Shown: positions 12,210-27,829 of the stretch, one piece after another
Numbering within the stretch: the first letter of the stretch is position 1
Layout of the letters: every line of letters starts with the position of its first letter
Source: Candidatus Levyibacteriota bacterium
GTDB taxonomy: Bacteria; Patescibacteria; Microgenomatia; Levybacterales; UBA12049
DNA: 32,440 bases
Direction of reading: 5' to 3'
Assembly (NCBI GenBank): GCA_003173915.1
Contig: PPGL01000095.1
Span: forward strand, 1-32,440
Notes under the pieces: model-generated
Databases searched by the model: none
The model's input: only the letters and a program-made list of their open reading frames with translations
Told to the model about the DNA's origin: nothing
Position numbers and translations under genes: made by a program

Positions 12210-12239
12210 TGTTTACATACTGCCACCTGCACATTCCTT

Positions 12240-12650: not shown

Positions 12651-12828
12651 ATCTGTCTCCTTTCTATATATGAAACGTACAAAAAAATCTTTTGTGACGC
12701 ACCATTCCTTTTTTCTGTACAAATTGTCTGAGCATCCAATTAGAACCATTGACGTTTAGTTATTTCGAACATGTTTTTATACATAAACATATCTGTTAAA
12801 ATTTTTGTGGTATCTTTTACCATCTACA

Positions 12829-13407: not shown

Positions 13408-13684
13408 AGCAGGGTCTATGAAATGAAAGATAATTAATTATCTCCTATTAATAATATTCTTTCATACCACTTTTTTCAAGTGGAAAGATATCAATTTACT
13501 AAAGGGCTACGTTCTCGTAAAAACTGTATAAACCCGTTTACTACGGGTACTACTAACCACGTATTCATAACATATTTTCTTAGAATGGGACATTCTTTAT
13601 TGAGAAAACTCTGTTTAAGAAATCACATTTGTTTCTTACCAAATATCCTTTTTTTTATTATATTTAGTCACTATATATACCCTT

Positions 13685-14212
13685 ATGGCAGAGCAAAAAA
13701 AGCAGCAACAACCCCAGCAAAATCAACAGGGACCACAAAACCAACCACAACAACAAAATCAGCAAGAACAACAAGGACAAAAAGGTGGACAGTCTTCGGA
13801 GAAAGGAAACCAAATTGAACAGAAAGCTGCTCAGGGAAAAGACACAATTACCAAAGTTACACAAAATATTGCTACGCTTTTGGAAAGAGTTCTTAGTGAA
13901 GGACTTACTGTTAATGGTCTTATTGGTATTCAAGGTCTCACAATTACATCAGTAGATAAAGCAAAAGAACTCGGCATTCTTCCCGCAGGAAGTCAAGGGA
14001 ACCAGGTAATGGGACAAAAAGGTGGACAGGCAGGACAAGGATCCAAAGAAGAAATAGATAGTTTACGGCAAGAAGTTGAACAACTTAAAAACATGTTAGG
14101 ACAAAAAGGTGGACAGACAACTGGACAACAGCCGCAGCAGAATCAATCTTCACAGCAGGAAGGGCAACAAGAACAGCAACCTCAACAAAATCAACCCTCG
14201 CAAAATAAATAA
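13685..14212 (+). CDS. Gln/Gly-rich low-complexity protein with GQKGGQ repeats
   Basis: 175 residues. The ends (1-45 and about 143-175) are almost pure Gln/Asn/Pro/Gly/Glu. The centre has two ordered parts: KVTQNIATLLERVLSEGLTV to KELGILPAG (about 58-102), and the helix EEIDSLRQEVEQLKNMLGQ (about 120-138), a probable short coiled coil. The motif GQKGGQ occurs three times, encoded by exact 18-nt DNA repeats. It has no signal peptide. The layout of disordered arms around a small helical core suggests a scaffold or nucleoid-type protein, but this is speculation. A TATATA box 5 nt before the ATG suggests a leaderless mRNA. Confidence 0.65.
   Translation: MAEQKKQQQPQQNQQGPQNQPQQQNQQEQQGQKGGQSSEKGNQIEQKAAQGKDTITKVTQNIATLLERVLSEGLTVNGLIGIQGLTITSVDKAKELGILPAGSQGNQVMGQKGGQAGQGSKEEIDSLRQEVEQLKNMLGQKGGQTTGQQPQQNQSSQQEGQQEQQPQQNQPSQNK
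13775..14116 (+). repeat. Three exact 18-nt direct repeats inside the Gln-rich gene
   Basis: GGACAAAAAGGTGGACAG occurs at 13775-13792, 14012-14029 and 14099-14116. Each encodes the GQKGGQ motif in the same frame. DNA-level identity, including synonymous positions, points to recent duplication or conversion rather than protein-level selection alone. Confidence 0.85.
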
Positions 14213-14430
14213 AGTATAAGCGTTCTTCTCCAACCTGAAATATCTCTATCCCTCCTAAAGAAAGGTAGATGAACTTATAAGCAGCTATATTGGTCTTCTT
14301 ATAAATAAAATCGAGTCCAGCTCAATTTAAAAGGACCTACAGCTAAATTCAAGATGCTCCGAGGACTAGTGAAACTCAGAGAGATATAAATTTTAAATCA
14401 TAGTTTGGTTTAGAAAAGAGACTGATTTCA

Positions 14431-14460
14431 TTGACATTATGCTTTTTTGGCTACTATAAT
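14431..14460 (+). promoter_or_regulatory. Consensus sigma70 promoter of the PsiE-like gene
   Basis: TTGACA (14431-14436) and TATAAT (14455-14460) are both perfect consensus, with an 18-bp spacer; the ATG is 7 nt after the -10. This is the clearest leaderless start in the window. Confidence 0.85.
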
Positions 14461-14467
14461 TTGTGCA

Positions 14468-14887
14468 ATGAATAAAATTTATGGAGTGTTTGCCCAAATA
14501 GAAACATTTCTTACTTTTTTTGTTGGTGTTTTTATTGCTTTGTTTGTTATAATTGCCCTTTTTGGCGTAATTGCAAGCATGCAGATTCCTCTTTTTGTAA
14601 CCCATGATTTTACACAAGCTGCGATTAATGGCATAGATGCAGCTTTTTTGGCAATAATATTATTGGAACTTTTGCATACTATTAGATCTAGAGAAACACC
14701 GATTCAACAATTGGAAGAATTTTTGATAATAGGGGTTACGTCTGCTGTAAGACATGGACTAGAGATTGCCGCAACTAGTACAACTGCATCTAATGAAATG
14801 AATGTTGTTATTAATTTAGGAATTAATGCAGGAGCAGTTTTGATACTTGCTATTGCTTTTTGGCTAGTAAAAATGAATGGGAAATAG
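14468..14887 (+). CDS. PsiE-like (phosphate-starvation-inducible E) membrane protein
   Basis: 139 residues with four predicted TM helices (about 13-38, 54-74, 84-105 and 114-134) and the family-like core DAAFLAIILLELLHTIRSRE, then EEFLIIGVTSAVRHGLEI. PsiE in E. coli is induced by phosphate starvation; its biochemical role is unknown. The start at 14468 is set by the promoter, which overlaps the longer frame beginning at 14447. The PhnD-like/two-component operon 5 kb away could share a phosphate-stress theme, but that link is only suggestive. Confidence 0.78.
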   Translation: MNKIYGVFAQIETFLTFFVGVFIALFVIIALFGVIASMQIPLFVTHDFTQAAINGIDAAFLAIILLELLHTIRSRETPIQQLEEFLIIGVTSAVRHGLEIAATSTTASNEMNVVINLGINAGAVLILAIAFWLVKMNGK

Positions 14888-14990
14888 AATGATTTTATAG
14901 GCTAAATTTTGCTCCCACTGGTAAACGTTTAAAACAGAAAAATTGAATTTGACTATTTTCTGGATTACTTCAAAATTTTATATTCATCTC

Positions 14991-15542
14991 TCAATCTAGG
15001 ACCGCCTTCTTACCGAGCTTAACTCTTTTTGTAGACTTGTCTAAAATATCAAAGCGTACAATTCCAATGAGAACTGAAACCAAAATAAATACCTCTGCAG
15101 TCATTCCCGCATAAGACCCAACAATCATGTTATAAATAAACCACAGCGGTCTTGGGAGTAACATGATAAAGCGAATTGCTCTTGGATTTGTTTGCCAAAC
15201 TGCTATTGCTCCGAAGATCTGAGCAATAATTGGTAGATAATCTATGGTGTTTTTCGCTGTAGCGTATCCAGAAATTAGGTATAAGATTACAAAAACAGAT
15301 GGCCAGAACTTTTGCTTTGCCCAAGAACCTTTTTCCTTTTTATAGGCAATAAAAACTACTCCCGCTTCGATTAAGTTCATTAATGCACCTACCCATGCTT
15401 GAAGTAAGCTGTAATGAACTACAAAGAGTATTAAACCCGTTAGCATTAAAAGCAGAATGTTGATACGTTTGTTTTTTTGAAATGAGAGGAGAACGAAAAG
15501 AAGAGCTAAGTATCCTATTCCCTGAATAATAACCTGGTTCAC
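14991..15542 (-). CDS. YgjV-like inner membrane protein, GTG start
   Basis: 183 residues, five to six TM helices, with IQGIGYLALLFVLLSFQKNK, then AWVGALMNLIEAGVVFIAYK, IFGAIAVWQTNPRAIR and PRPLWFIYNMIVGSYAGM. These match the YgjV (Imp-YgjV) family of bacterial inner membrane proteins of unknown function. The start codon is GTG at 15542; TACAAT (15549-15554) ends 6 nt before it, again a leaderless arrangement. Confidence 0.78.
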   Translation of the reverse strand: MNQVIIQGIGYLALLFVLLSFQKNKRINILLLMLTGLILFVVHYSLLQAWVGALMNLIEAGVVFIAYKKEKGSWAKQKFWPSVFVILYLISGYATAKNTIDYLPIIAQIFGAIAVWQTNPRAIRFIMLLPRPLWFIYNMIVGSYAGMTAEVFILVSVLIGIVRFDILDKSTKRVKLGKKAVLD

Positions 15543-15719
15543 AAATTAATTGTATCAAAAGTTAGAAAATCATAGATAACATTATGCAGTTGGCTCTGTA
15601 GGTTAATTTATTCCAAGCTGTCATCTAATCGCTACAAGATCTCTATCTACCCAAGTATTCCTTTATCTATCTTGTAGAGTAACTACCGATTCATCTCTCA
15701 AATTTTTACTCTCTGCCTA

Positions 15720-16532
15720 TTAAGAAATTTTCTCTAGCTCTTCCAACATTCCTCCCAAGTGTGCAAGGTGAGCATACGCAAGAAACATGAGACTGATAGC
15801 TCCATAAAAGAGAAAGTGACTTGTGTACATGACTTGCATATACATAACTCCTATTTCCCCTAGTACATCATTACATACGTATAAAATCGCCGAACAAGCG
15901 ATAAGAATAAAAGCAATAGTAAAATAGTTAATAAATTGAGCAAGCATGGAAACGTGTTTTTTCAACAGGAACAATAAACCAATACCACAGGCCGTTACCA
16001 GCAATACTATCCCACCTTGAAGGTACATAAGCCATCCACTGGCATTTACTTCTACCATTTGTTGATTCATATAAAAAATACCTGCTGCCAAAAAACATGC
16101 AATGATAACAAATGGGGCAAGATAATTAAAAATAGCTAAGTTTTTTACCACTTTCTTAAGAAAATACGATACACCAAGAGAAATTGTTACTAAACCAGCT
16201 ATGTAAAAGTTAACAACATTAGCAGCAATCACTTCATAGGGTAATGAGAAGTACGCATAACTAACATACTCCACAATATGTGAAATAGTAAAAAGAATAA
16301 TAATAGCTATTCCACTAATGATGAATGGCTTGAGAAAACTGTCATACACATTATAATGAACAAAAATTCTGCTTCCTCCTAAGGCAAGGAAAATGATAGC
16401 AATTAAATGGATAAGACCTGTACTCATAAAAAACATTCCGGTTGTTTCAACAAATAGAATGATAACAATATTAATAGCAAGGATTACCCAATGGTTGAAA
16501 ATTTTTTCCAATAAACTTTCTGATTTAGTCAT
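15720..16532 (-). CDS. Multi-pass membrane protein of unknown function
   Basis: 270 residues with about eight hydrophobic helices evenly spaced from residue 15 to 260 and short polar loops, beginning MTKSESLLEKIFNHWVILAI and ending AHLGGMLEELEKIS. I do not recognise the family. The regular helix pairs and internal histidines (IHLIAIIF, HIVEYVSY, YTSHFLFYG, AHLAHLGG) could suit a cofactor-binding or sensor membrane domain, but no motif is diagnostic. Confidence 0.65.
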   Translation of the reverse strand: MTKSESLLEKIFNHWVILAINIVIILFVETTGMFFMSTGLIHLIAIIFLALGGSRIFVHYNVYDSFLKPFIISGIAIIILFTISHIVEYVSYAYFSLPYEVIAANVVNFYIAGLVTISLGVSYFLKKVVKNLAIFNYLAPFVIIACFLAAGIFYMNQQMVEVNASGWLMYLQGGIVLLVTACGIGLLFLLKKHVSMLAQFINYFTIAFILIACSAILYVCNDVLGEIGVMYMQVMYTSHFLFYGAISLMFLAYAHLAHLGGMLEELEKIS

Positions 16533-16613
16533 CTATTACAAAATACAATGAAATGAGTATGTATGTAAAGACATTGAAGTTACCACGAAATAGTAGATTA
16601 ATTTTTATAAATT

Positions 16614-16650
16614 TTTTGCTCCGCGGGTTAGCGAAAATTCGAAACATTTA
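16614..16650 (+). repeat. 37-bp direct repeat, copy 1
   Basis: Begins TTTTGCTCCGCGGGTTAG and ends AAAATTCGAAACATTTA. It matches copy 2 at 18161-18197 at 33 of 37 positions by direct comparison. The pair flanks the 475-aa gene. Confidence 0.8.
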
Positions 16651-16686
16651 TTTTCAACTAAAATAAGTTTCTTTGCTTATGGCATC

Positions 16687-18114
16687 TTAATTTAAGGCAG
16701 TGACATCTCTTCTAAAAACCAATAACCGTTGGGATATTGTTGGAGGTTCAACTTGGTTATTTACTTGATTATCCAACCCTAGTTGATATTTAGCAGTACC
16801 TGAAACATTTACTCTATCTAATATTACTTTTAAATCCTGTGTCGCTGCAGCAACCCCCGCTTGGAGAACCTGGTGTTCCCAAAGTAATCTTCCTAGTGCT
16901 ATTTTATGTTCGTCTGGTTTTCTGCTTTCACCCTGGGCTTGAATATACTCGAGCCCAGATACACCAATTAAAATTGCTTTCTGCATTGTTCTAAATACTT
17001 CACTTCCTAATTGCTCGTTTATAGCAGCTCCAGCTTGTTCATGACCGGGTTCGGAGGTAAAGAGCAATGAATGGATTCCTAGCATTGTTGGAGAACTGTC
17101 AAGTACTTTACACATTTGATCTAAACCATCAAGAGCAGTTGCAAGAGCCATTGCTTGTACGTTATTTCTAGCAGGCTTGGCTAAAATTCTTGGATCAGTC
17201 ACACCAGAATTACCAATAATCATAAACATTTGCGCCATTTGCTGTTGTTCTGGTAAATCATTTGCTGCGGCAACAATCATTTCATCCAAAAGTCTTTGTC
17301 CAATAAGAGTGTCTCTGTCTCCTTGTAATCTTCGTGCTACACTAACTCCAGCCTGCTCCATCTGTTCTTGAGCATATCCAATCAATTGAACAGTAACTGG
17401 ATGAAGATTTTTCCTCCATAAACCAAATTGTTTTTGATATTCTGTTTCTTGAGATTGAGATGTTCCAATTGCATTTACTGTTGGGTCATTCCCAATTATT
17501 GCATTAAACATAAAAAGAACTGGGTTTATTGCGGGAGAAGTTTGCCTTTCAACTGGTATAGGAGGTAACTCTGCAGCTGGAAGCAGTTTTCTATCTAATG
17601 CTCTTTCAATTACTGTCGAAAGAGATAATCTTTTTAAGTCCTTACTACTTGGTCGTTCTGTTCCACTTCCCAATGCAGTAAGCATACGAAGTGCTTCTAG
17701 TCCCATTGCCTCCTCAGTAGGTAATTCACGTAGTGTTCCTGTGATATCAAACACTAAATTTCTCAAAAATAAATGTGCTAATAATTCTCTTGTAGTTACA
17801 TCCGTAACTCCTGCAAATTGTCTTAAGCCTTCATTGTAAACAGCCCTGTATTTTGTTCTCATTTCTGCATCTGGCACTTCTGCAGGATCAAAACATCCCA
17901 TTGCTGTAGAAACGCTTGAACCCAAATCTGTAACATCGTCAGCTAGACCAGGAAATCTATTCGTAACCATTCCTAAATCTTGTCTAATAGATGCATATGG
18001 CTGCCTTTTTCTAGCAGCATCACTGGGAAAAAGCTTTCTAAAAGCTCCTGTTAATTGAGTTGCAGCTTGTTTTACCTCAAAACTTCTTTGCGGATATTCA
18101 TGACCTCTAGGCAT
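16687..18114 (-). CDS. Unknown 475-aa helical protein flanked by direct repeats
   Basis: 475 residues, soluble, Ala/Leu/Gln/Arg-rich and almost all helical; no signal peptide, TM helix or motif I recognise. Landmarks are MPRGHEYPQRSFEVKQ at the start, ELLAHLFLRNLVFDITG (about 115-131), a Pro-rich break PAAELPPIPVERQTSP (near 193-208) and VFRRDVTALN at the end. The longer frame begins with a TTG that is really the -35 box, so the ATG at 18114 is used. Codon content looks richer in G/C than the neighbouring membrane gene. It is divergent from the methyltransferase cassette and bracketed by two copies of a 37-bp repeat, which suggests it moves as a unit. Confidence 0.7.
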   Translation of the reverse strand: MPRGHEYPQRSFEVKQAATQLTGAFRKLFPSDAARKRQPYASIRQDLGMVTNRFPGLADDVTDLGSSVSTAMGCFDPAEVPDAEMRTKYRAVYNEGLRQFAGVTDVTTRELLAHLFLRNLVFDITGTLRELPTEEAMGLEALRMLTALGSGTERPSSKDLKRLSLSTVIERALDRKLLPAAELPPIPVERQTSPAINPVLFMFNAIIGNDPTVNAIGTSQSQETEYQKQFGLWRKNLHPVTVQLIGYAQEQMEQAGVSVARRLQGDRDTLIGQRLLDEMIVAAANDLPEQQQMAQMFMIIGNSGVTDPRILAKPARNNVQAMALATALDGLDQMCKVLDSSPTMLGIHSLLFTSEPGHEQAGAAINEQLGSEVFRTMQKAILIGVSGLEYIQAQGESRKPDEHKIALGRLLWEHQVLQAGVAAATQDLKVILDRVNVSGTAKYQLGLDNQVNNQVEPPTISQRLLVFRRDVTALN

Positions 18115-18121
18115 GGAAGAA

Positions 18122-18150
18122 ATTTTACCAAATGGAAGCTTATATGTCAA
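18122..18150 (-). promoter_or_regulatory. Sigma70 promoter of the 475-aa gene
   Basis: TTGACA (18145-18150), a 17-bp spacer and TAAAAT (18122-18127) on the minus strand; the ATG follows after 7 nt. This decides the start codon. Confidence 0.78.
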
Positions 18151-18160
18151 ACTACAGGAC

Positions 18161-18197
18161 TTTTGCTCCGAGGGTTAGATAAAATTCGAAACTTTTA
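18161..18197 (+). repeat. 37-bp direct repeat, copy 2
   Basis: Begins TTTTGCTCCGAGGGTTAG and ends AAAATTCGAAACTTTTA. Same orientation as copy 1, 1547 bp apart. It lies just upstream of the 475-aa gene's -35 box. Confidence 0.8.
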
Positions 18198-18333
18198 CGC
18201 ACATTCGTTACTCTCTTACTAGATTACCTTCGTTGGAATTTATAGTATAGGAAGAGATGTACAAAAGCTGAAAAGAAGATAGATGACCTAATTGATCTTC
18301 TTTTCGTAAATTGGCATACTATTATAGTAACTT

Positions 18334-19452
18334 ATGATAAAAAATAAACTCAATATAGTTGAACTTTATGCAGGGACAGCTCGGTCTGCAGAAGCTTTCA
18401 GAAAATGGAAGAAAAGTAAGATTGCTTTACTTATCGATAACAACGACTTTGCTGCAAAAACATATCAAGAGAACTATCCGAAAACTCCTTATATTGTTGG
18501 AGACTTAACAAAAATCACACCAAAAGAGATTGAAAGGCAAATTGGTGGGAAAGTAGACGTTTTACTCGGTTGTCCTCCCTGCCAAGGATTCAGTGCAGCA
18601 GGAAACAGAAATCCAAATGATCCTCGCAATAATCACTTAATTCTCTATGCCAATTTTATCGCTAAGCTAAAACCTTTGGCTGTATCAATGGAAAATGTTC
18701 CGTTAGCTGCTGACTCTCCTCTGTTCAAGGAGTTTATAAGAAAAATTGAAAAGGCTGGTTATTATTGGACTGCTGGAATATTAAATGCAGCACTCAGAGG
18801 GAGTACGCAATCTAGACAAAGGCTCTTGTTAATCGCTATCAGAAAAGACGTTGGAGCAACTCCAGTAATCCCAAAACCTTCACATGGAGGCAATAAAAAA
18901 TATTACAGTTATTCATATAAGAAAATGATGGCTCTGAAAGATGATGCGGTTGGTATTCTAGGCGAAGCACCCGCAACATCAAGGCTAAAGAAGCACTTGC
19001 CATATGTTGATGATACTTTTGGCAAAAAAAATATACCTACGATAGAAGAATTATTTAGCGATCTTCCTCCAATAGGATCAAAGGAAGCAGAGCAGCTCGT
19101 ACATAACAAATGGTCACATTCACCTGAGATGAAAAATAGAATGTCTGCAATTTCCGAGGGAGGACGTTGGGAGAGCGGAAAAGATTATTTCTCTAATGCT
19201 TATGGGAAATTACACCGAAAAGGTCTTGCTCGTACTCTCACCACATTTTTTTCTAACCCGGGGAGTGGCAGATATTGGCATCCAACAGAAGATAGAACAT
19301 TAAGTGTACGAGAAGCAGCACGAGTGCAGGGTTTTCCAGATTCATTCAAATTTTTACCACCCTACTCCAGATCTGCACGACTCATTGGAAATGCTCTAGA
19401 CGCCTCGATTGCCGAGGTTGCATACGAAGTGATACGAAAAAGTATAGAATGA
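18334..19452 (+). CDS. DNA (cytosine-5) methyltransferase
   Basis: 372 residues with the C5-methyltransferase motif series in order. Motif I is ELYAGTARSAEAF (variant of FxGxGG), motif IV is GCPPCQGFS with catalytic Cys83, motif VI is MENV (119-122), motif VIII is QSRQRLLLIAIR (159-170), and motif X is LIGNALDASIAEVAY near the C terminus. It transfers a methyl group from AdoMet to C5 of cytosine in DNA; the target recognition region (about 185-290) does not reveal the site. No restriction endonuclease of known type is beside it; instead HerA- and NurA-like genes follow 49 bp later. TATAGT ends 5 nt before the ATG. Confidence 0.92.
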   Translation: MIKNKLNIVELYAGTARSAEAFRKWKKSKIALLIDNNDFAAKTYQENYPKTPYIVGDLTKITPKEIERQIGGKVDVLLGCPPCQGFSAAGNRNPNDPRNNHLILYANFIAKLKPLAVSMENVPLAADSPLFKEFIRKIEKAGYYWTAGILNAALRGSTQSRQRLLLIAIRKDVGATPVIPKPSHGGNKKYYSYSYKKMMALKDDAVGILGEAPATSRLKKHLPYVDDTFGKKNIPTIEELFSDLPPIGSKEAEQLVHNKWSHSPEMKNRMSAISEGGRWESGKDYFSNAYGKLHRKGLARTLTTFFSNPGSGRYWHPTEDRTLSVREAARVQGFPDSFKFLPPYSRSARLIGNALDASIAEVAYEVIRKSIE

Positions 19453-19456
19453 TGCA

Positions 19457-19501
19457 TTGACTTATAACAACTAACAGTTTATCATAAGTGTTAGTAACAC
19501 T
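19457..19501 (+). promoter_or_regulatory. Promoter and dyad operator candidate before herA-like gene
   Basis: TTGACT (19457-19462) and TATCAT (19480-19485) with a 17-bp spacer. Directly after comes AGTGTTA-G-TAACACT (19487-19501), a perfect 7-bp dyad ending at the base before the ATG. The HerA-NurA pair may thus have its own regulated promoter, separate from the methyltransferase. Confidence 0.6.
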
Positions 19502-21118
19502 ATGACAGATACTGCTCAATCCAATCTTCCACAGTTAGTGACAGACGATGCTACCGCAAGCAACGAAATAACCCCCCCTTCCTCATTTAGTTCTCTCGGA
19601 AAAGTTGTTTATTGGAATCAGACACCAAATTTTAATACAGTAAATATTCATCTTGATCCCGATAAAGACGTAAAACCCGGGCAATTTCTTGGAGTGTGGC
19701 ATGGGAAAAGAGGTAAAAATACTATTACTATTCTTCGGGTAGCAAATACTTTTGAAACTAATCCCAACGAAAGCCCTGAATTGGCTGTAGCAAGAAAAGC
19801 ATTAGGACTAGGTCAAGGATATGCTGGTGAAGGTTTTTCAACACGTATTTATAGACAGGCAGAATGTTCGACCGTTGAAGAATTTGAGGTTATTTTAGAA
19901 GAAGGTCAAATTAGTATTGTTGGTGATGGTAAAGCTCCAGAGGAGTTATGTCGAGCCGGTGATATGGCAATCTCGCTCCCTGCAGAACTCGTACAAAAAT
20001 CTTTTGGCGGTTTAGAAAAGGAGGAAGATGGTATTTCATTGGGTACCACATATGGTTCGGATCACGTACCCGCAACATTATCTCCTCAAATGTTCCAATT
20101 ACACACAGGAATTTTTGGCAATCCTGGTAAAGGAAAATCATATGAATCAGGGGTAATTTTAGAGGAAGCAATGGCTTGGGATGTTCCATGTCTAGTATTG
20201 GATATTAATGGTGAGTTAGTGGATGCGGCAAAGGCATTGGGAGGATTAGTAATTACGCTTCCTGACCCAAAAGCATTTGGTATTTCATTAAACTTAATGA
20301 CTCCTCAAGAATTAATAGCTGTTACTCCCAATGTACAACCCAACACAATATATGCTGAACTCATCGAGCTTGCACATGATCAACTTCGAAACGAATCCAG
20401 AGGACAAGCTATTACTTTCCAGCAATTAAAGGAAAGAATTGAAAAAATAGGACAAATGACCGAGGCAAAAAAACCGAGTATCGGTGCAGCAATTGCCAGA
20501 GTAAGTACCCTAGAAAGAGATCCAATTATCGGTGGTAATTTTGATTTTATTGACCAAATGAAAAAGCATAAGCTAGTTGTCTTAGATTGCAGATATCTTT
20601 CATTACGACAAACACAGCTTATCGCTGCAGCAGGTGCAAGAGAGCTGCAGAAAATTGGGCGAGAAATGGCAAGAAAGGCTGACACTGGCGACAAAGAGGC
20701 ACAAAATTGGTTTGCTCTTTATTTTATTGACGAAGCACACATTGTAATACCCCAAGATGATAAAGTTGTTAGTACTCAGGTATTTTATGAGCTTGCACGT
20801 ATGGGACGCCATGTGCGAACAGGACTTATTGTTGCAAGCCAATCTCCTCAAGATCTAAATGCTAGTGTTTTGAAAAGACTTCAAACCAGATTCATCTTTG
20901 CTCTTGAAAAGGATCAACTCATGAGTATAAAAGCAGTGTTATCGGACTTTGATGATAATCTTTTGAATCAATTGCCTAAACTTCCACGAGGCGTATGTGC
21001 TGTATCAGGGACGGGTGAAGTTGTAAAACATGGCTTCTTACTAAAAGTTCGTCAACGTAAGACCCCTGTTAAGGGTGGTACACCTCCGGTATTTAGTGAT
21101 CGAAAAAAGAAAGAATGA
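19502..21118 (+). CDS. herA: HerA-type FtsK/HerA-family DNA-translocating ATPase
   Basis: 538 residues. An N-terminal beta-rich HAS-barrel-like region (about 30-165) precedes the RecA-like ATPase. Walker A is GNPGKGKSYESG with Lys212, Walker B is ALYFIDEAH with Asp410-Glu411, a RMGRHVRTG segment (433-441) carries likely arginine-finger residues, and VASQSP (444-449) is the sensor region. HerA hexamers pump double-stranded DNA and work with the NurA nuclease in end resection in archaea; bacterial HerA homologues are often paired with effectors in anti-phage systems. The stop overlaps the next start (ATGA), so translation is coupled to the NurA-like protein. Confidence 0.88.
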   Translation: MTDTAQSNLPQLVTDDATASNEITPPSSFSSLGKVVYWNQTPNFNTVNIHLDPDKDVKPGQFLGVWHGKRGKNTITILRVANTFETNPNESPELAVARKALGLGQGYAGEGFSTRIYRQAECSTVEEFEVILEEGQISIVGDGKAPEELCRAGDMAISLPAELVQKSFGGLEKEEDGISLGTTYGSDHVPATLSPQMFQLHTGIFGNPGKGKSYESGVILEEAMAWDVPCLVLDINGELVDAAKALGGLVITLPDPKAFGISLNLMTPQELIAVTPNVQPNTIYAELIELAHDQLRNESRGQAITFQQLKERIEKIGQMTEAKKPSIGAAIARVSTLERDPIIGGNFDFIDQMKKHKLVVLDCRYLSLRQTQLIAAAGARELQKIGREMARKADTGDKEAQNWFALYFIDEAHIVIPQDDKVVSTQVFYELARMGRHVRTGLIVASQSPQDLNASVLKRLQTRFIFALEKDQLMSIKAVLSDFDDNLLNQLPKLPRGVCAVSGTGEVVKHGFLLKVRQRKTPVKGGTPPVFSDRKKKE

Positions 21119-23289
21119 GCATAATAATATCTAGCAAAGATCGTCGAGATTTACTTTTAAGTTTGGCTGCCCGCCCAGAAGGTGTAGGAATCAATGAAGT
21201 TCATCAGGCAGCGAGAGAAAAAGGTGATCAAGCATCGATTGAAGCTTATCATAACCTTGCGCGTCGCCTACTTCATAGAGGCGTCTTAACTAAACATGAT
21301 TCTGAATCCGGAACAATCTACAAATCTATTCCTGAAACTTCAGGTAGCGAATGGCTTGAAGAAGATCAACTCGCTACTCTTATAGATCCTGATTACCCGC
21401 TCTTAGCTTTAACCATATGGAAAGAGTCACAGAGACAAATTAGCGAAATCCCTGATAGTTTGTGGATTGAATTACGAGAACGGTTGCGAGGAGAAAATGC
21501 TAGAGAGCTGGTTATTAAAGCTATAAAAAGCTATTGTGAAGACTATTATGCACAGATAGGTACTCTCATCGAAGAAACAAAAATACACGACTCGGAATAC
21601 ATGCAGCAACAGTCCCCAATAGAGATACAGCAACATACAAATGAATTAGCAAAACTCAAACGGGAGGCAGAAAATAGTCGGATATTGTTACAACGTTTAA
21701 CCAAATACGGTCTTGGACTTTCTTATGAAGCCGTAAAATTACCAACTAATATTACTGAAGCAATTGATTTTTATAATAGCGATGAAGGCAGCTTCTTTTA
21801 TAATGAAAAACTACTAACTCAAGAAGTTCACTCTCGTGTTTCCGAAGAAAATTTTATTTGTGACGTTGACAAAAAACAGGAGGACTCTAAATTATTAATA
21901 GCAGCAACTGATGGATCTACTCGTACTGGAGTCCTCAACCTCCTTGATGAATCAGGGGACTTTGTCGTAAGTCAAGCACCGACAATAACTGTAAATACTG
22001 CCATTGGACAAATCAATAGAAATGCTAAGCATAATGACAAACAAACCCCTGTATTCCTGCGACTACCCGAAAAACCAGAAGATATGCAGAGGCAAGATAA
22101 TAAGTATACAATTATGGCTAAACTTTTTTATCCTGATCTTAGTGATGCTGAATATATTCACTCTGTTACAAACGCAATGGATTTTTTGGAATCAAAAGCA
22201 GCACTGAGAATAATGAACCGCTGGTATTTGCAAAACAATAGTAATATTGAAATTCCGGCATGCGACATAGTACTACGTGATGGCACAATAACCCCCCAAG
22301 ATCGTGATTTTAATCATTATAGAACAATGAGCACATATGGACAGATTGTAAGGGATTTAGTCAGTACGAATTGGGAGATAACCAAGAAATGCAAAGAAGA
22401 TGGACAAACATTAGGCGGAGTTGTGAAGCATGCTCAATTGATGGTTTTTGCTCCAATAATAAACTGGTATGCTTGCCACTTAGCTAAGGAAAAGAAAGGG
22501 CAACTAGTCACTTGGCCTATGCATGCTATGAATACTATCTTTGATCAAGTTCTTCTAACTCGCCTACTAACAGCCGGGAGAAAAAATAATGAACCGTGGG
22601 CAAGAACGTGTATTGTTTTCCGACCCTATCACTCTACAACTAACTTTTCTAATGGATATAGTAGAACAAACACACCAGTAAAATTAATTATGAATCAATT
22701 GGCAGAGATAAATACCAGTGGCATTCCAGTTGATCCAGAGCAAGTTTTATTTTGGAAGGAAATATTCCGAGGAGAAAACGATCCCTATATTAAAATGTTG
22801 CAGAATGTACATTATGGAAGCTTTTTTGTTGGCGCCATTCCACGCATAGATAATGCTGGCAAAACACTACCAAGATTTGAATTTCTTGTTCCAGCTTCAA
22901 CGGTGGAAGGGGCAGAAGACATATGGACTGTAGCTCAACCCCATCTGCAGCGATTACTCACTGCGCTAAAGCAAAATGGATTCGAAGTGTCACTAGAACA
23001 TTCCATGTTTAACGATAAGGGAACAATGGATATACTCCCTGCAATCCTTATAAAAGCCCACGACACAGTGAAAATATGGGGACAAGACTTAATGTCAAGG
23101 GTACATGAATATATTGGTTATCATCTTGCGCGATATATTAGTACAAAAAAAATTAAAGGTGTGCAGATTAGACCTTTCAAAAAAGAAGAACTTGAGCTTC
23201 TTTATATGCAGTTGAAGAGAGAAAGAGATATTAAAGCAGGAAATCGAGAAAATGATACCTATTTACCCACTGAAAAGAACGAAAAATAA
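21115..23289 (+). CDS. nurA: NurA-like nuclease with N-terminal winged-helix region
   Basis: 724 residues. Residues 5-75 look like a winged helix (LLLSLAARPEGVGINEVHQA, then NLARRLLHRGVLTKHDSESG); a helical/coiled region runs to about 200. The rest carries NurA motifs: LLIAATDGSTRTG (Asp266 of the DGS motif), CDIVLRDGTI (Asp389), LGGVVKHAQLM (433-443, the G-x-x-K motif) and a C-terminal LPAILIKAHDTVKIW. NurA is a Mn-dependent 5'-3' exonuclease/endonuclease loaded by HerA. Typical NurA proteins are about 300-450 residues, so this is an enlarged form. It starts within the last codons of the herA-like gene. The winged helix could bind the dyad before herA or add DNA specificity. Confidence 0.78.
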   Translation: MSIIISSKDRRDLLLSLAARPEGVGINEVHQAAREKGDQASIEAYHNLARRLLHRGVLTKHDSESGTIYKSIPETSGSEWLEEDQLATLIDPDYPLLALTIWKESQRQISEIPDSLWIELRERLRGENARELVIKAIKSYCEDYYAQIGTLIEETKIHDSEYMQQQSPIEIQQHTNELAKLKREAENSRILLQRLTKYGLGLSYEAVKLPTNITEAIDFYNSDEGSFFYNEKLLTQEVHSRVSEENFICDVDKKQEDSKLLIAATDGSTRTGVLNLLDESGDFVVSQAPTITVNTAIGQINRNAKHNDKQTPVFLRLPEKPEDMQRQDNKYTIMAKLFYPDLSDAEYIHSVTNAMDFLESKAALRIMNRWYLQNNSNIEIPACDIVLRDGTITPQDRDFNHYRTMSTYGQIVRDLVSTNWEITKKCKEDGQTLGGVVKHAQLMVFAPIINWYACHLAKEKKGQLVTWPMHAMNTIFDQVLLTRLLTAGRKNNEPWARTCIVFRPYHSTTNFSNGYSRTNTPVKLIMNQLAEINTSGIPVDPEQVLFWKEIFRGENDPYIKMLQNVHYGSFFVGAIPRIDNAGKTLPRFEFLVPASTVEGAEDIWTVAQPHLQRLLTALKQNGFEVSLEHSMFNDKGTMDILPAILIKAHDTVKIWGQDLMSRVHEYIGYHLARYISTKKIKGVQIRPFKKEELELLYMQLKRERDIKAGNRENDTYLPTEKNEK

Positions 23290-23298
23290 GCTTTCATA

Positions 23299-23314
23299 AG
23301 CTTCCATAGAAGCT
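23299..23314. repeat. Small hairpin after the nurA-like gene
   Basis: AGCTTC and GAAGCT form a 6-bp stem with a CATA loop, 10 bp after the nurA stop. There is no T-tract on the plus strand, so it is not a good intrinsic terminator. Confidence 0.4.
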
Positions 23315-23456
23315 AATACCAAATATCTCCTTTTTCTGTATGCATCTTAACTGCATTGTCCTTTTTTTCTTTCTCAGTCATTGTTTTCTGCGCTTCCTCT
23401 GCCTGTCTTAAAGCCTCAACCAAATTTACTAAATTTTCTAGCTCTTCTTCTGTCAT
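23313..23456 (-). CDS. Small ORF, 47-aa acidic/basic helical peptide
   Basis: 47 codons from ATG at 23456: MTEEELENLVNLVEALRQAE, then a Lys/Glu-rich segment and HTEKGDIWY at the C terminus. The heptad-like N-terminal helix and the charged, non-random composition look like real protein. A TATAAA box sits 3-4 nt before the ATG, close to the leaderless pattern of the window. Not recognised. It is convergent with the nurA-like gene. Confidence 0.5.
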   Translation of the reverse strand: MTEEELENLVNLVEALRQAEEAQKTMTEKEKKDNAVKMHTEKGDIWY

Positions 23457-23469
23457 AGTTTTATACAAA

Positions 23470-23653
23470 CCGGACACTTAGTGTGCCTAAAAACCATAAA
23501 AATGTCCGGAAAGTTACAACTCTCATGCCTAAAAACCGCGATTTTGTAACTTGCTGCCTATTGTACAACTCATGAGGCTAAAAACCCAGATTTTGAGCAA
23601 TAAGTGTTTACAGACTTTTACACACTTTAGGCAACTCTGTAAAAGACTGTATA
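23470..23653 (+). repeat. Array of three 40-nt hairpins with a common loop plus one inverted hairpin
   Basis: Units H1 (23470-23509), H2 (23512-23551) and H3 (23561-23600) are each 40 nt: 14 nt, a 12-nt core TGCCTAAAAACC (AGGCTAAAAACC in H3), 14 nt. Their arms differ but self-pair: CCGGACA/TGTCCGG, AGTTACAA/TTGTAACT, TTGTACAA/TTGAGCAA. A fourth hairpin nearby has an 8-bp stem CTTTTACA/TGTAAAAG extended past an A-A mismatch, and its loop contains TTTAGGCA, the exact complement of TGCCTAAA. H2 and H3 are clearly related copies. It may be an RNA element with kissing loops or a protein-binding DNA array; no known family is recognised. Confidence 0.7.
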
Positions 23654-23670
23654 TGAAAACTGAATAAATA

Positions 23671-23910
23671 CTATTTTTTCACAGATCTTTCCATTGTTAC
23701 AAGAATAAGGTTTTTCTTCTTACCAAGTAAGGCTAATGGGAAAAATAAGCAACCAAGACAACAGGTTGTCCCAGCAGACCATCCCTGCGAAGAAACTTCC
23801 TTACTTTTCAGTACCCAGCCTTCTTCAGCAAGTTCATTTATGACTCTAGCCATCTTCCTTCTTCCACTCGCAGTATCTTCAAACGTAAGTGTTTTGTATT
23901 CTTTTGCCAT
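23671..23910 (-). CDS. Small hypothetical protein with one hydrophobic segment
   Basis: 79 residues: EYKTLTFEDTASGRRKMARV, INELAEEGWVLKSKEVSS, then a Cys/Gly/Leu-rich hydrophobic stretch TTCCLGCLFFPLALLGKKKN and VTMERSVKK. The E-Y-K-x-L ... GWxL pattern is like DUF4177-type proteins, and the hydrophobic Cys-containing stretch may be a membrane hairpin. A strong AAAGGAGGTGG Shine-Dalgarno precedes the ATG, which lies inside the 3' end of the YidD-like gene (32-nt overlap), so they share an operon. Confidence 0.62.
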   Translation of the reverse strand: MAKEYKTLTFEDTASGRRKMARVINELAEEGWVLKSKEVSSQGWSAGTTCCLGCLFFPLALLGKKKNLILVTMERSVKK

Positions 23911-24136
23911 AATCCACCTCCTTTCTCTTGTATTTGATGTAGGAATTTATTGGGTTGCACGACAATAACCGACAAGCGATTAAAACAAGAGCAACGGGTA
24001 AACTGTGCTTTTCGAGGCAAAAAACCGCGTGTGCGGAACACGTGGGCTTAAAAAGGCAATGTACACCGCGTTCAGCAAGATAAGGTGATACTTTCTTCTG
24101 GTATTTACGAATAGCTGCAATTAGCAATTTTTTCAT
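23879..24136 (-). CDS. yidD: YidD-like membrane protein insertion factor
   Basis: 85 residues from MKKLLIAAIRKYQKKVSPYL. It has the YidD layout: an N-terminal amphipathic helix, the conserved CLFKPTCSAHAVFCLEKH (family PTCS-x-Y/H-A) and RLLSCNPIN with the paired cysteine and proline. YidD proteins assist YidC-type insertion of membrane proteins at the cytoplasmic face. Here it is not beside rpmH/rnpA/yidC but in an accessory region, so it may be a second or element-borne copy. The start is the ATG at 24136 just after a GGGGG stretch; the upstream open frame is part of a structured leader, not protein. Confidence 0.75.
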   Translation of the reverse strand: MKKLLIAAIRKYQKKVSPYLAERGVHCLFKPTCSAHAVFCLEKHSLPVALVLIACRLLSCNPINSYIKYKRKEVDYGKRIQNTYV

Positions 24137-24300
24137 GCAAAAAGCCCCCGTCAGCGATGGCTTGCGCCACCTACCGCACTTTCGCACGATAACCGGTAAA
24201 GATGCTCTGACGAGAGCTTACAGCTCTTTACCGGTTTTTTATGCCATGCCCCCTGCATTACCAGAGGGTTGTAGGCAAATAAATTGTTATTCAAATTATA
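24137..24300 (-). ncRNA. Structured 5' leader / riboswitch candidate upstream of yidD
   Basis: TATAAT at 24295-24300 on the minus strand would start an RNA of about 150 nt before the yidD ATG. It folds into (a) a 12-bp stem from AACCGGTAAAGA and TCTTTACCGGTT (24191-24236), (b) CGTGC-GAAA-GTGCG, (c) GGTGGC-GCAA-GCCATC (24156-24171), and (d) a pseudoknot between CGTCAG in the loop of (a) (24207-24212) and CTGACG (24149-24154), directly before GGGGG and the start codon. GNRA loops and G-U pairs form only on the minus strand, so that is the functional RNA strand. No known riboswitch class is recognised. Confidence 0.55.
24191..24240 (+). terminator. Terminator-like hairpin on the plus strand
   Basis: The 12-bp stem AACCGGTAAAGA/TCTTTACCGGTT is followed by a run of six T (24235-24240) on the plus strand. 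It would stop plus-strand transcription coming from the nurA side before the 208-aa gene. The same sequence is the main stem of the minus-strand leader. Confidence 0.6.
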
Positions 24301-24319
24301 CCATGAAGCTAAATTGGTA

Positions 24320-24325
24320 TATACT
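24320..24325 (+). promoter_or_regulatory. -10 box of the 208-aa gene
   Basis: TATACT preceded by TTGGTA, with 6 nt to the ATG at 24332. It matches the TATACT-N6-start pattern seen at 908, 3950 and elsewhere, and lies inside the longer frame from 24284. Confidence 0.65.
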
Positions 24326-24331
24326 TGCAAT

Positions 24332-24958
24332 ATGGTTGGCACAAAAACTCCGGAAGGTTCAAAAAATCCAGCATGGTGGAAAAGTAATGTTAGTAAACAG
24401 GCAAAAGAAAACCATATCTACCTACAACTACTTTTTACTAAAAAACTGCCTCCAGAATTAAAAAGGCGGATTGCCTTACTAAGGAAAATTCTTTCACAAG
24501 GAAATTCAAAAGTTATAGAAGAAGACTTAGGCAAATTAGTCCATGAAATTAGTATTCTAGGAAACCTTCCCCTCGAACACTATTCTTATTCAATAGAGCA
24601 ATTTATTCTTTACGACATAATCAGACCGCCTGCTATAAATTTCTATATTACGGAGACCCGTGATATTGTTAGTGTAAATTTTGTAAAGAAACCTAAGAAA
24701 GAAGACTGGCATGTTGCTCAAACTATGGTTAGACAAACATATGACACCAGACCACAAACTCCCCGCTTTAATCCCATCCTCTATAAGACCCTACCAAGAC
24801 AGATAAAGCATTCAAAACGCAAATCCACCTGGGATAAAGTAGAAATTGATAGTAAAAATAAACAGGTTAAGATAGAAAACGACACAAAAAAAAGAAATGT
24901 GACAAAACAGGATAAACATAGATTTGGGCAATACCTCAAACGATTTGAAAAAGAGTAA
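24332..24958 (+). CDS. Hypothetical basic protein, 208 aa
   Basis: 208 residues, not recognised. The N-terminal half is helical (LPPELKRRIALLRKILSQGN, then VIEEDLGKLVHEISILGN), the middle has a strand-rich PPAINFYITETRDIVSVNF, and the last ~60 residues are very Lys/Arg-rich (KHSKRKSTWDKVEI to QYLKRFEKE), suggesting nucleic-acid binding. It is the first gene of the recombinase-side accessory region and is followed by overlapping hairpins that look like a conditional terminator. Start chosen by the -10 box 6 nt upstream. Confidence 0.62.
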   Translation: MVGTKTPEGSKNPAWWKSNVSKQAKENHIYLQLLFTKKLPPELKRRIALLRKILSQGNSKVIEEDLGKLVHEISILGNLPLEHYSYSIEQFILYDIIRPPAINFYITETRDIVSVNFVKKPKKEDWHVAQTMVRQTYDTRPQTPRFNPILYKTLPRQIKHSKRKSTWDKVEIDSKNKQVKIENDTKKRNVTKQDKHRFGQYLKRFEKE

Positions 24959-25035
24959 AAACAGGTACCTACTTCTGTCACCGCCCAGGTTGTTAACTGT
25001 GTGAAAATCTTCATAACACAAAACAAAATTTAATT

Positions 25036-25083
25036 GGTTGGCGACAGAAGCTCCGGTATCGCCAACCCCGGAGCTTTTGTTTT
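25036..25083 (+). terminator. Terminator with overlapping, mutually exclusive hairpin (attenuator-like)
   Basis: Hairpin A pairs GGTTGGCGA (25036-25044) with TCGCCAACC (25059-25067). Hairpin B, the terminator, pairs AAGCTCCGG (25048-25056) with CCGGAGCTT (25068-25076) and is followed by TTTTGTTTT. Their arms interleave with a zero-length third loop, so both cannot form at once. Upstream, CTTCTGTC (24972-24979) is complementary to GACAGAAG (25043-25050), which overlaps both 5' arms and could act as a third partner. Confidence 0.65.
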
Positions 25084-25091
25084 AGAAAGTT

Positions 25092-25277
25092 ATGTTATCA
25101 AAGCAAGCAATACTCGATTACCAACAAATATATAAAAAGACATATGGTAAGAATATTTCTTATGAGAAAGCGTCAGAAGGTGCAATAAAGCTCTTACGGC
25201 TTTTCAAACTTGTTTATATACCTCTACCAAAAGTCTGGGTTGAAAGGAATAAAAACAATGGCAAAAAACTTAAATGA
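25092..25277 (+). CDS. Small hypothetical protein of the recombinase cassette (61 aa)
   Basis: 61 residues: MLSKQAILDYQQIYKKTYGK, then ISYEKASEGAIKLLRLFKLV and PLPKVWVERNKNNGKKLK. I recall similar short proteins (…YKK.YGK.IS..EA...A..LL.LFKL.Y.P) near serine recombinases in CPR genomes; the role is unknown. A helical DNA-binding or excision-type factor would suit size and charge, but this is a guess. It begins 9 bp after the terminator T-tract and overlaps the next small gene by 20 bp in another frame. Confidence 0.6.
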   Translation: MLSKQAILDYQQIYKKTYGKNISYEKASEGAIKLLRLFKLVYIPLPKVWVERNKNNGKKLK

Positions 25278-25479
25278 TCCAATATATAAAAGGACCATCA
25301 CAATGCGAGAGTTTTTACTTACTTTCTTTGATAAAGAGAGTGGATATCAGGAGAAATTTGTAAATGGATTTTATTTAATAAAACAGTTTCAAAAACAGCT
25401 AAATATATGGGTTGTTGCAATATACAGCCGAGACGCTTATCGGAAAAAGAAAGATTATAAGAGAAAACAGAAAAGATAA
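25258..25479 (+). CDS. Small basic hypothetical protein (73 aa)
   Basis: 73 residues from MAKNLNDPIYKRTITMREFL, ending in a Lys/Arg tail (YRKKKDYKRKQKR). A GAAAGGAA Shine-Dalgarno within the previous gene is about 8 nt before the ATG. Not recognised; the basic tail suggests nucleic-acid contact. It is translationally coupled to the 61-aa gene by overlap. Confidence 0.5.
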   Translation: MAKNLNDPIYKRTITMREFLLTFFDKESGYQEKFVNGFYLIKQFQKQLNIWVVAIYSRDAYRKKKDYKRKQKR

Positions 25480-25799
25480 TTTCTCCCTCGTGGGAATGGC
25501 GCGCGCGAGGTAAAAAAAAGTTGGCGCAAGGATACTGCTTGCCTCTGGCTAAGGAAAAGAGGTCGAGTAACGAGCAGGCCTTGGGGAAAAATGGGATGAC
25601 GGATCGCTTCACGCACTAGGAGTCCGTCCCTTCTAAGCCGAAAGGTAAAGTTTGGGATAGTTAGTTTGCTTATAGCTACCGAGATACAACGGAAAATAGC
25701 TAGATATTGGAAAACCTTACGGAAAGGGAAGGCTATCTCGTACAAGCAGACTGTACATGTCTAAAAAAGTGAGCTAATAATGTTAGTTAACAAGAATAT
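25480..25799 (+). other. GC-richer non-coding stretch with many hairpins before the recombinase
   Basis: 320 bp without a convincing gene, visibly richer in G/C than its surroundings. Stems seen include CCTCG/CGAGG (25486-25490 with 25506-25510), CCTCT/AGAGG (near 25532-25562), GACGGA/TCCGTC (25598-25603 with 25623-25628) and AGCTA/TAGCT (25674-25678 with 25697-25701), the last with a nested CCG/CGG. A dyad GTACA-N7-TGTAC lies at 25740-25756. It could hold a structured RNA and/or the recombinase's attachment site. Confidence 0.5.
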
Positions 25800-26141
25800 A
25801 TGGATAACTTACTTCTACAATCTCTCAAGTTTTTTATCTACTGCCGTAAAAGCTCCGAACAAGAGGATAGGCAGATACTTTCCCTCCCTGCACAAGAAAA
25901 AGAACTAAGATCGCTCGCGGAAAGAGAAAAGCTCCGAGTAGTTGATGTTTATTTAGAATCCCGAAGCGCTCACACTGCCGGAAGACCTCAATTTAACGAT
26001 ATGATTAAAAGGATAGAAAACGGCGAAGCAAATGGCATAATTGTCTGGGATGAATCAAGAATAGCTCGCAACGCACTTGATAGCGGCAGGGTTATTTATA
26101 TGATCGACCTTGAACAAATTAAGGCTATTGTAAAACCATGA
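25800..26141 (+). CDS. Serine recombinase, N-terminal catalytic part (frame broken)
   Basis: 113 residues with the resolvase/invertase catalytic domain: FFIYCRKSSEQEDRQILSLP (nucleophile Ser18 in YCRKS), YLESRSAHTAGRPQFNDMI and IIVWDESRIARNALDSG. It ends in a stop at 26139-26141 just where the protein family normally continues. The rest is encoded in the -1 frame from 26138 (stop and start overlap as ATGA). Either one recombinase is split by a mutation, or two polypeptides assemble, or a -1 slip on the AAAA run (26132-26135) joins them as ...VKTMKVYKNTP. Confidence 0.85.
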   Translation: MDNLLLQSLKFFIYCRKSSEQEDRQILSLPAQEKELRSLAEREKLRVVDVYLESRSAHTAGRPQFNDMIKRIENGEANGIIVWDESRIARNALDSGRVIYMIDLEQIKAIVKP

Positions 26142-27526
26142 AAGTATATAAAAATACACCCGACGACAAATCCTGGCTTGCCATGTGTTTCATGATGAGC
26201 AAGAAAGAATCCGACGACAAAGGCGTCAACGTAAAACGAGGTCTACGTACTAAAGCAGAAAAAGGTTGGAACCCTTCTTCCTGGACAAAACCGGGCTATA
26301 TGTGGGATAGATTTGCCGAACGAGGAAACAAAACGTTATTGGACGATCCTGTTCGCTTCCCTCTTATCAAGAAGTGCTGGGAGCTAATGTTAACCGGTGC
26401 ATACACTGTTCCACAAATTCTGAGAAAGCTTAATAACGAATGGGGATATAGAAATCCTACCCGCAAAAGTATGGGAGGTACACCAATGGCACGAAGCCAA
26501 CTCTACAAATTATTTGGAGATCCGTTTTACTACGGCTGGTATGAATACAAAAATTCCAACGGAGAAAAACAATGGTACAAGGGTAACCATGAGCCAATGA
26601 TTACAAAAGAGGAATATAATAGAGTACAAATTCTTTTGGGACGAGGTTGTAGGCAACGAATGGCAAAACATGAATTTCCTTTAACCGGCATTATTCGGTG
26701 CGGCGAATGTAATGCTATGATAACTGCAGAAGAAAAATGGCAAGTCATTTGTGGCAATAAACAATGTAAGAATAAATTCAATGCAAACAATAGAGACTTT
26801 TGTCCAAAGTGCCAAATAAAAATACAAGATATGCAAAATCCTACTGTTCTCCACTACACTTATTATCACTGTACGAAACGCGCGAATCCTAATTGCAGCC
26901 AAAAAAGTATTAGGCACAATAAGCTTGAAGAGCAAGTTGATTCTGTCCTAAAGGATATAAGAATTTCGGAAAGGTTTAAAAACTGGGCAATTAAACACCT
27001 TAATGAACTAAACGATGAAGAAGTAAATATTCACACTGCTACAATTAGCTCTTTGCAACAAACTTACAATGATTGTATAAAACGATTGGACAATTTAGTT
27101 AAGTTGAAAATTTCTCCATCCAATTCCGATGGTTCACTCCTCTCTGACGATGAATTCAAAACGCAGAAAACAAAAATTGTAGAGGAGAAACAAAAACTAG
27201 AAGAGCATTTAGGTAATCAGGGGAAAAGAGTTGAGAATTGGCTAGATACAGTAGAGAAGAATTTTGATTTTGCAATTCACGCACGCTATAAATTTGAGAC
27301 AGGATCGCCGGAAGAAAAAAGAGAGATACTCGTTGCAATCGGTTCGAACATAAAATTATTTAATGATTTGCTATATCCAGACTTGAAAAACGATTATGGA
27401 TTCCTTGAAATGGCAAAAAAAGAAGAGCAAACAATTGCTTATGGGTTCGAAACCAACGAACGTGTTGATAAATCAATCCAATTAGAAGAATTGTGGAATA
27501 AAAATCTTACTCTGCTCCGCGACTAG
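26138..27526 (+). CDS. Large serine recombinase, C-terminal DNA-binding part
   Basis: 462 residues. It starts mid-protein with MKVYKNTPDDKSWLAMCFMM (the linker after the catalytic domain), then the recombinase domain (GINVKRGL-like GVNVKRGLRTKAEKGWNPSS, then LRKLNNEWGYRNPT) and the zinc ribbon GIIRCGECNAMITAEEKW. An inserted four-cysteine knuckle (CGNKQC to CPKC) and YTYYHCTKRANPNC follow. A long coiled coil (about 290-350) lies near the C terminus. Such enzymes integrate and excise mobile DNA at specific sites. The last codons (LLRD and stop) lie inside the 3' end of the tRNA-Asn gene on the other strand. Confidence 0.88.
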   Translation: MKVYKNTPDDKSWLAMCFMMSKKESDDKGVNVKRGLRTKAEKGWNPSSWTKPGYMWDRFAERGNKTLLDDPVRFPLIKKCWELMLTGAYTVPQILRKLNNEWGYRNPTRKSMGGTPMARSQLYKLFGDPFYYGWYEYKNSNGEKQWYKGNHEPMITKEEYNRVQILLGRGCRQRMAKHEFPLTGIIRCGECNAMITAEEKWQVICGNKQCKNKFNANNRDFCPKCQIKIQDMQNPTVLHYTYYHCTKRANPNCSQKSIRHNKLEEQVDSVLKDIRISERFKNWAIKHLNELNDEEVNIHTATISSLQQTYNDCIKRLDNLVKLKISPSNSDGSLLSDDEFKTQKTKIVEEKQKLEEHLGNQGKRVENWLDTVEKNFDFAIHARYKFETGSPEEKREILVAIGSNIKLFNDLLYPDLKNDYGFLEMAKKEEQTIAYGFETNERVDKSIQLEELWNKNLTLLRD

Positions 27527-27774
27527 GATTCGAACCTAGGACCTTGAAGTTACATATTTTGGACTATCTCTTTACCATGCTTTTCAGTTTAGGTAGTGGG
27601 CGCTTATTGGTGTACTCACCTAGTCTCTGCACCTTTCCACCTTTCGGAGGACTTGGCTCAGGATTATCTTTTAACACGTTCAAGACGTCTCCTGAATTCA
27701 CCCACTTTTCACTTTAAAGTTTCCCTTAAAGGCTGCTAACACAGCTTCCTGCTCTACCGCTGAGCTATCGCGGA
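27515..27774 (-). tRNA. tRNA-Asn(GUU) interrupted by a group I intron
   Basis: Exon 1 is 27741-27774 and exon 2 is 27515-27552, together 72 nt. The acceptor stem is TCCGCGA/TCGCGGA, the D arm is GCTC-AGCGGTA-GAGC, and the anticodon loop is CTGTTAA, giving anticodon GUU. The T arm is CTAGG-TTCGAAT-CCTAG, and discriminator G73 fits tRNA-Asn. CCA is not encoded. The intron lies between U35 and U36 of the anticodon. The 27-43 pair of the anticodon stem is a G-A mismatch, the one irregularity. It is downstream of rpoD and on the same strand. Confidence 0.85.
27553..27740 (-). other. Compact group I self-splicing intron (188 nt) in tRNA-Asn
   Basis: P1 pairs the exon end GCTGT with GCAGC in the intron across a GTTA loop, placing the required U-G wobble at the 5' splice site; the last intron base is G. 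P2-like CTTTAA/TTAAAG follows. P4 is TCAGGA/TCCTGA (27690-27695 with 27658-27663). The conserved R element GTGCAGAGACTA (27621-27632) and S element AAGAGATAGTCC (27561-27572) form P7 through GACTA/TAGTC. There is no room for a homing endonuclease. The exact subgroup needs modelling; the size and tRNA location suit IC3. Confidence 0.88.
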
Positions 27775-27829
27775 ATATAAAGTCTATTTTACCATTTCAA
27801 ATATGAGAATTCCACAAGAAAGAAGGATA

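Follow-up and report, generated by a model that had tools for sequence, protein, structure and literature searches.

HerA translocases assemble into hexamers and form a 6:2 complex with NurA. In the Tdp system, said to have been described by An et al. in 2025, a HerA-NurA-like complex is paired with phosphorothioate self-marking, and TdpC is the component that marks self DNA. To our knowledge, the HerA-NurA pairs of archaea and Deinococcus have no C5 methyltransferase partner. In T. kodakarensis, HerA-NurA cleaves double-stranded DNA exonucleolytically on both strands whatever the end, and the authors of that study suggested an antiviral role (PMC12977600). In D. radiodurans it is the barrel side of HerA that binds NurA (PMC9960219).

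In this work we analyzed a stretch of 32,440 nucleotides from a Candidatus Levyibacteriota bacterium (hereafter, the window) that contains a C5 methyltransferase gene followed by genes for HerA and a NurA-like nuclease (hereafter, the trio). The closest described gene set that we found is an operon of ICEth1, an excising element of Thermus thermophilus, which is needed for efficient DNA donation (PMC5365140). Compared with the trio by gene content, it likewise places a modification enzyme next to a NurA-like nuclease and a HerA/FtsK-type ATPase within a single operon, and a recombinase is located close by, but the gene order is different, a type IIG enzyme and an N4/N6 methylase are present instead of a C5 methyltransferase, and the operon is assigned to DNA donation (PMC5365140). 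Both partners of archaeal and Deinococcus HerA-NurA match those of the trio in fold, whereas the matched NurA chains have only about 300–430 residues and lack a winged helix in their aligned part. Dnd and HerA/FtsK capture systems share with the trio the idea of a translocase-fed nuclease, and in some Dnd-type systems cytosine methylases replace phosphorothioation; unlike the trio, they include DndD/DndE, DndFGH or Orc/Cdc6 parts, and NurA is mentioned 0 times in the paper that describes them (PMC10853773). In the searched literature (open-licence papers, mostly titles and beginnings of abstracts) we recognized no description of a C5 methylase-HerA-NurA trio. In its kind the trio appears to belong with the modification-coupled HerA-NurA systems rather than to form a category of its own.

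Layout and identity of the three genes

An earlier note on this DNA had described three genes on one strand, the last two overlapping. Indeed, three uninterrupted open reading frames lie on the plus strand at the positions it gave, and the HerA and nuclease genes have four bases in common (Table 1). The methyltransferase gene is separated from that of HerA by 49 bp, and the 724-aa frame is open from the ATG at the HerA stop to the TAA at 23289. The same overlap was found in a Planctomycetia locus (L001), whose protein is 53% identical. The G+C content of the three genes (38–40%) is similar to that of rpoD (41%) and dnaG (37%). In the region 18000–23600 we counted 17 promoter-like sites against 15.8 expected and six terminator-like sites against 3.4 expected.

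Table 1. Positions of the trio, its parts and the downstream recombinase frames in the window
Feature	Positions	Strand	Basis or remark
C5 cytosine DNA methyltransferase, 372 aa, complete	18334..19452	+	PF00145, TIGR00675, PADLOC MTase_II
HerA-type hexameric DNA translocase, 538 aa	19502..21118	+	PF01935, structure model
NurA-like nuclease, 724 aa	21115..23289	+	
Winged helix at the N-terminus of the nuclease, residues ~1–82	21115..21360	+	PadR, Fur/Zur, BlaI/MecI and similar chains match
NurA-like core of the nuclease, residues ~107–686; D266, E319, E322, D323, D389, K438, H649	21433..23172	+	range of NurA structure rows; conservation, best 120 of 179 homologues
ATGA stop-start overlap of the HerA and nuclease genes	21115..21118	+	sequence; same in L001
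Serine recombinase, Resolvase N-terminal domain, 113 aa	25800..26141	+	PF00239 E 2.7e-16; association with the trio uncertain
Recombinase and zinc-ribbon domains, overlapping second frame, 462 aa	26138..27526	+	PF07508 E 7.6e-8, PF13408 E 2.8e-7; association with the trio uncertain

The first two proteins are what they had been taken for. The complete C5 methyltransferase matches PF00145 (E 2.6e-47), TIGR00675 above the cut-off and the PADLOC model MTase_II (E 5.3e-62), and its motifs are intact: among the best 120 of 4800 homologues the PPCQ-type motif is present in 114, ENVP and QxRxR in all 120 and GNA in 118, while C83 of the PCQ motif is invariant across 27 aligned sequences. A PADLOC scan of ten proteins of the window revealed no clear endonuclease, the frame at 24284–24958 matching REase_II at E 0.016 only. 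HerA matches PF01935 (E 1.9e-18) and has both the Walker A motif and DEAH, which agrees with the ATPase with intact Walker motifs that had been claimed; G206, G211, K212, S213, D410 and E411 are invariant in 32 aligned sequences. It is composed of a barrel-like region (~26–165) and an ATPase region (~173–525), and its model aligns with HerA structures across residues ~26–527, the barrel region included.

The third protein is less easily named. Scans of Pfam, NCBIfam, PADLOC and PHROGs gave no clear name for its family, which comprises proteins of about 700 aa in at least 179 clusters above the threshold. The motifs on which the NurA assignment had been based are present (DGS at 266–268, DG at 389–390, and G435 and K438 of G-x-x-K), and structure matches also support the claimed N-terminal winged helix as a winged-helix-like stretch. 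D266, E319, E322, D323 and D389 are found in 120 of 120, and K438 and H649 in 119 of 120, of the best 120 of 179 homologues; these candidate residues provide the conserved acidic catalytic positions and the basic or histidine helpers by which a NurA is recognized. Mutants have revealed the importance of D49 in NurA of T. kodakarensis (PMC12977600) and of D53, K201 and R309 in that of D. radiodurans (PMC9960219); judging from the order of the motifs, the nuclease may contain equivalents of D49, D53 and K201.

The assignment to NurA proposed in the earlier note was supported by structure and, in homologues of the protein, by weak profile matches. In structure comparison the core of the protein has the NurA fold (an RNase H-like core), the eleven best VIA rows of the search are all NurA or TdpAB chains, and the TdpAB structures 8wfd and 8wet, a HerA-NurA-like pair, are among the matches of both the nuclease and the HerA models. 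No other family was matched by as many homologues as PF09376, the matches being weak but repeated: it was found in 8 of 30 homologues at E <= 10 (best E 1.3e-4; the next families, two each) and in 17 of 58 at E <= 0.05 (best 9.9e-5; one other family with one member). It should be mentioned that these two sets have 15 proteins in common, the 58 being drawn from the 70 rows P0051–P0120. Homologue P0114 scores 15.6 bits against a cut-off of 21, and it starts at the same PF09376 position as an annotated haloarchaeal NurA, so that the Asp of DGS falls on the same profile position.

Other comparisons gave no clear match. The nuclease of the window itself matches no Pfam family, PF09376 included; Foldseek against the PDB gave no match at E <= 0.001, the best being D. 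radiodurans NurA (E 2.9e-3); and when its profile was compared by hhalign with three haloarchaeal NurA proteins, which were found via plasmid records, the result fell short of significance (probability 0.6%, E 0.1), but in this alignment the second DG motifs were in register. When PDB sequences were searched, neither the nuclease nor its alignments returned anything credible, and the haloarchaeal proteins found no NurA either. Three designed BCL-xL/MCL-1 binders that appeared in one of the searches with the nuclease or its alignments (E 0.06 or worse) were rejected as not credible. No PADLOC model covers the nuclease, and 30 homologues gave only PDC-S02 (two, best E 0.0012) and DpdC (one, E 0.044). 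In the same way, NCBIfam yielded scattered weak matches for 30 homologues, two of them to Fur-family regulators, PHROGs yielded phrog_20091 in two of 58 (best E 0.0071), and a viral fold library contained no match to the nuclease at E <= 0.001.

The three genes recur as a unit

To score linkage, two protein clusters were considered to be on the same contig if their longest contigs are equally long. We compared the best 120 of the 179 nuclease, 274 HerA and 4800 methyltransferase clusters above the threshold, taken from no more than 7998 scored candidates; P0221, a HerA row without a contig, was dropped, leaving 119. This method can miss links, while chance is covered by a control with shifted lengths.

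In these best-120 lists, with the window's own contig counted, the nuclease shares a contig with HerA in 36 of 120 cases and with the methyltransferase in 27 of 120, HerA and the methyltransferase are together in 40 of 119, and all three genes are found on 14 contigs. In the control, with shifts of 1 to 100, the three pairs (in the same order) averaged 0.64, 0.595 and 0.58 matches, with at most 3, 4 and 4, respectively. Thus, the trio is real and recurrent as a unit. For the 14 triple contigs, the distance matrices are correlated (r = 0.90 for nuclease-HerA, 0.87 for nuclease-methyltransferase and 0.85 for HerA-methyltransferase, values higher than in any of 5000 permutations), and r is 0.87, 0.86 and 0.83, respectively, when the two-member clade of the window is left out. 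The 36 nuclease-HerA contigs gave r = 0.861 (maximum of 2000 permutations, 0.259), with nearest neighbours in agreement in 23 of 36. A correlation of this kind looks the same for joint transfer and for shared host descent.

It can be asked whether HerA and the NurA-like nuclease defend alone, by an abortive or end-degrading action like other HerA-nuclease pairs, next to an independent methyltransferase gene. Sir2-HerA and DUF4297-HerA, which differ from the trio in their effector families and have no methyltransferase, are listed as methylase-free defence systems (PMC12948488, PMC10952713). Moreover, 22 of the 36 HerA-nuclease contigs have no match among the best 120 of 4800 methyltransferases, and none was detected in genome G001, a fragmented MAG in which the contig breaks off within HerA and which was searched without a positive control. 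Among the top 40 methyltransferases, five of 22 matches on contigs of 6 kb or more are without a HerA or nuclease partner among the matches listed. However, the unmatched contigs may be explained by the use of the best 120 of 4800 methyltransferases. Within that same best 120, there are 61 matches on contigs not shorter than 6 kb, of which 45 are linked with HerA or the nuclease, and the distances of methyltransferase and nuclease are correlated as given above. We consider defence by the pair alone quite unlikely.

The distribution of the trio nuclease is sporadic, and it is rare in the sampled genomes. With the entry genome G001 itself set aside, it was absent from all sampled genomes of the phylum (391), class (396) and order (101) to which G001 belongs (overlapping samples), and none of 149 genomes sampled from that phylum had PF09376. 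Among the HerA and nuclease matches listed, the named carriers are an Acidobacteria MAG, with HerA and the nuclease on the same contig by the linkage criterion, and a Planctomycetia MAG with the nuclease. When genome contigs were scanned with two peptide patterns, a single locus was obtained out of 65 pattern matches. Searches of viral contigs, once with the nuclease and once with its alignment, revealed no relative, nor did tblastn of the nuclease against plasmids and phages; for HerA, nine plasmid records were retrieved, each below 60% identity and none reaching 80% coverage.

The earlier note had named as a refuting case a methyltransferase that is separate in related genomes beside a universal HerA-NurA core. 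This was not seen, the nuclease being absent from the other sampled genomes and the methyltransferase being linked with both partners in the best-120 lists. The same data bear on a housekeeping role in the processing of DNA ends for repair, with the methyltransferase as a chance neighbour. Such a role would agree with the end-resection function of HerA-NurA in archaea and Deinococcus (PMC9960219), but the rarity in sampled genomes, the methyltransferase linkage and the additional winged helix all argue against it, and we regard it as very unlikely.

Proposed mechanism of the trio

The trio appears to be best explained as the equivalent, for base methylation, of what Tdp is for phosphorothioate, a function that we infer; the design proposed here is obtained by replacing the phosphorothioate mark of Tdp with 5-methylcytosine. 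We lean, with little more than an even chance, towards a restriction-modification-like three-gene defence system in which HerA would feed unmarked DNA to the nuclease. A restriction-like design of this sort had been suggested in the earlier note, whose interpretation our results support in part. The C5 methyltransferase would mark a cytosine motif in host DNA. The HerA hexamer would translocate along double-stranded DNA and dock via its N-terminal barrel onto a dimer of the NurA-like protein, and the latter would cut the strands fed into it at a putative metal-dependent RNase H-like site; unmarked DNA would be degraded and marked DNA spared. The winged helix is a likely sensor or loader and a candidate reader of the motif or of its methylation state. 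As the methyltransferase gene comes first and is followed by the translationally coupled HerA-nuclease pair, the mark may be set before the nuclease accumulates. Assembly of the complex, nuclease activity, defence and protection by methylation are all predicted properties.

In a type IV-like, modification-dependent system, 5-methylcytosine would attract the nuclease, and the methyltransferase would belong to a counteracting or regulatory circuit. The one observation in its favour is the DNA-binding winged helix, which would be able to read methylation either way. An active methyltransferase within the trio would, however, make the host a target, and its motifs are intact; we find this reading highly improbable.

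A separate class of restriction-modification can be tentatively envisaged, to which we give somewhat less than an even chance. In this class self would be defined by 5-methylcytosine, non-self DNA would be destroyed by a processive HerA-NurA pump-nuclease with a winged-helix DNA sensor rather than by a site-specific endonuclease, and the system would be scattered sporadically among distant bacteria. A family of ~700-aa proteins without a clear name in the libraries scanned is here assigned a fold, a candidate role and two partners that recur with it. Should the trio restrict, base methylation could gate a translocating NurA nuclease, as phosphorothioate does in Tdp. It would then also bear on whether HerA-NurA acts in repair or in defence, a question reopened recently (PMC12977600).

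Recombinase genes and other features around the trio

Downstream of the trio, a large serine recombinase (25800–27526, plus strand) is split over two overlapping frames of 113 and 462 aa, which may reflect a sequence error, decay or a programmed shift. Serine recombinase genes are located downstream in both the window and L001, and for this reason we keep open the main rival of a defence function, a module for DNA transfer within an integrative element similar to ICEth1. According to it, HerA would pump DNA from the donor, the NurA-like protein would trim it, the methylase would mark or protect it and the serine recombinase would move the element. In Thermus, an operon with Tth111II, a NurA-like nuclease, TdtA and an N4/N6 methylase is found, and deletion of the nuclease or of Tth111II cuts DNA donation (PMC5365140). 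Nevertheless, the recombinases of the window and L001 are distant (24% identity over one domain), that of the window is split between two frames, and the trio is separated from it by YidD, a DUF4177 protein and further sequence. Besides, of the 41 families of direct repeats in 15500–29500, the 20 largest include no convincing flanking repeats, and no tRNA gene was found in the window. DNA transfer appears unlikely to us.

Several other features of the window should be mentioned. A group I intron (RF00028, 27543–27754, minus strand, 78.7 bits, E 1.3e-18) is situated in the interval that separates the recombinase gene from the 3' end of rpoD, and a LOOT RNA (RF03000, 24156–24277, minus strand, 80.3 bits, E 8.3e-14) lies directly upstream of yidD (PF01809, E 1.4e-14). 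The RNA fold of 25480–25799 is not unusual (z -1.53). Scans of Pfam, PADLOC, NCBIfam and PHROGs gave nothing above the cut-off for two long frames, 16687–18150 (minus strand, 487 aa) and 30911–32011 (plus strand, 366 aa), which are not significantly similar to each other either. A direct repeat of 37 nt (16614–16650 and 18161–18197, 89% identical) is situated just upstream of two minus-strand frames of 270 and 487 aa, respectively, and is possibly a shared promoter or operator. Finally, in 1-kb windows the G+C content rises a little to the left of the trio, at about 17 kb, from ~31–37% (~1–17000) to ~36–40% (17000–32440), and the left half of the window may represent an island or a different context.
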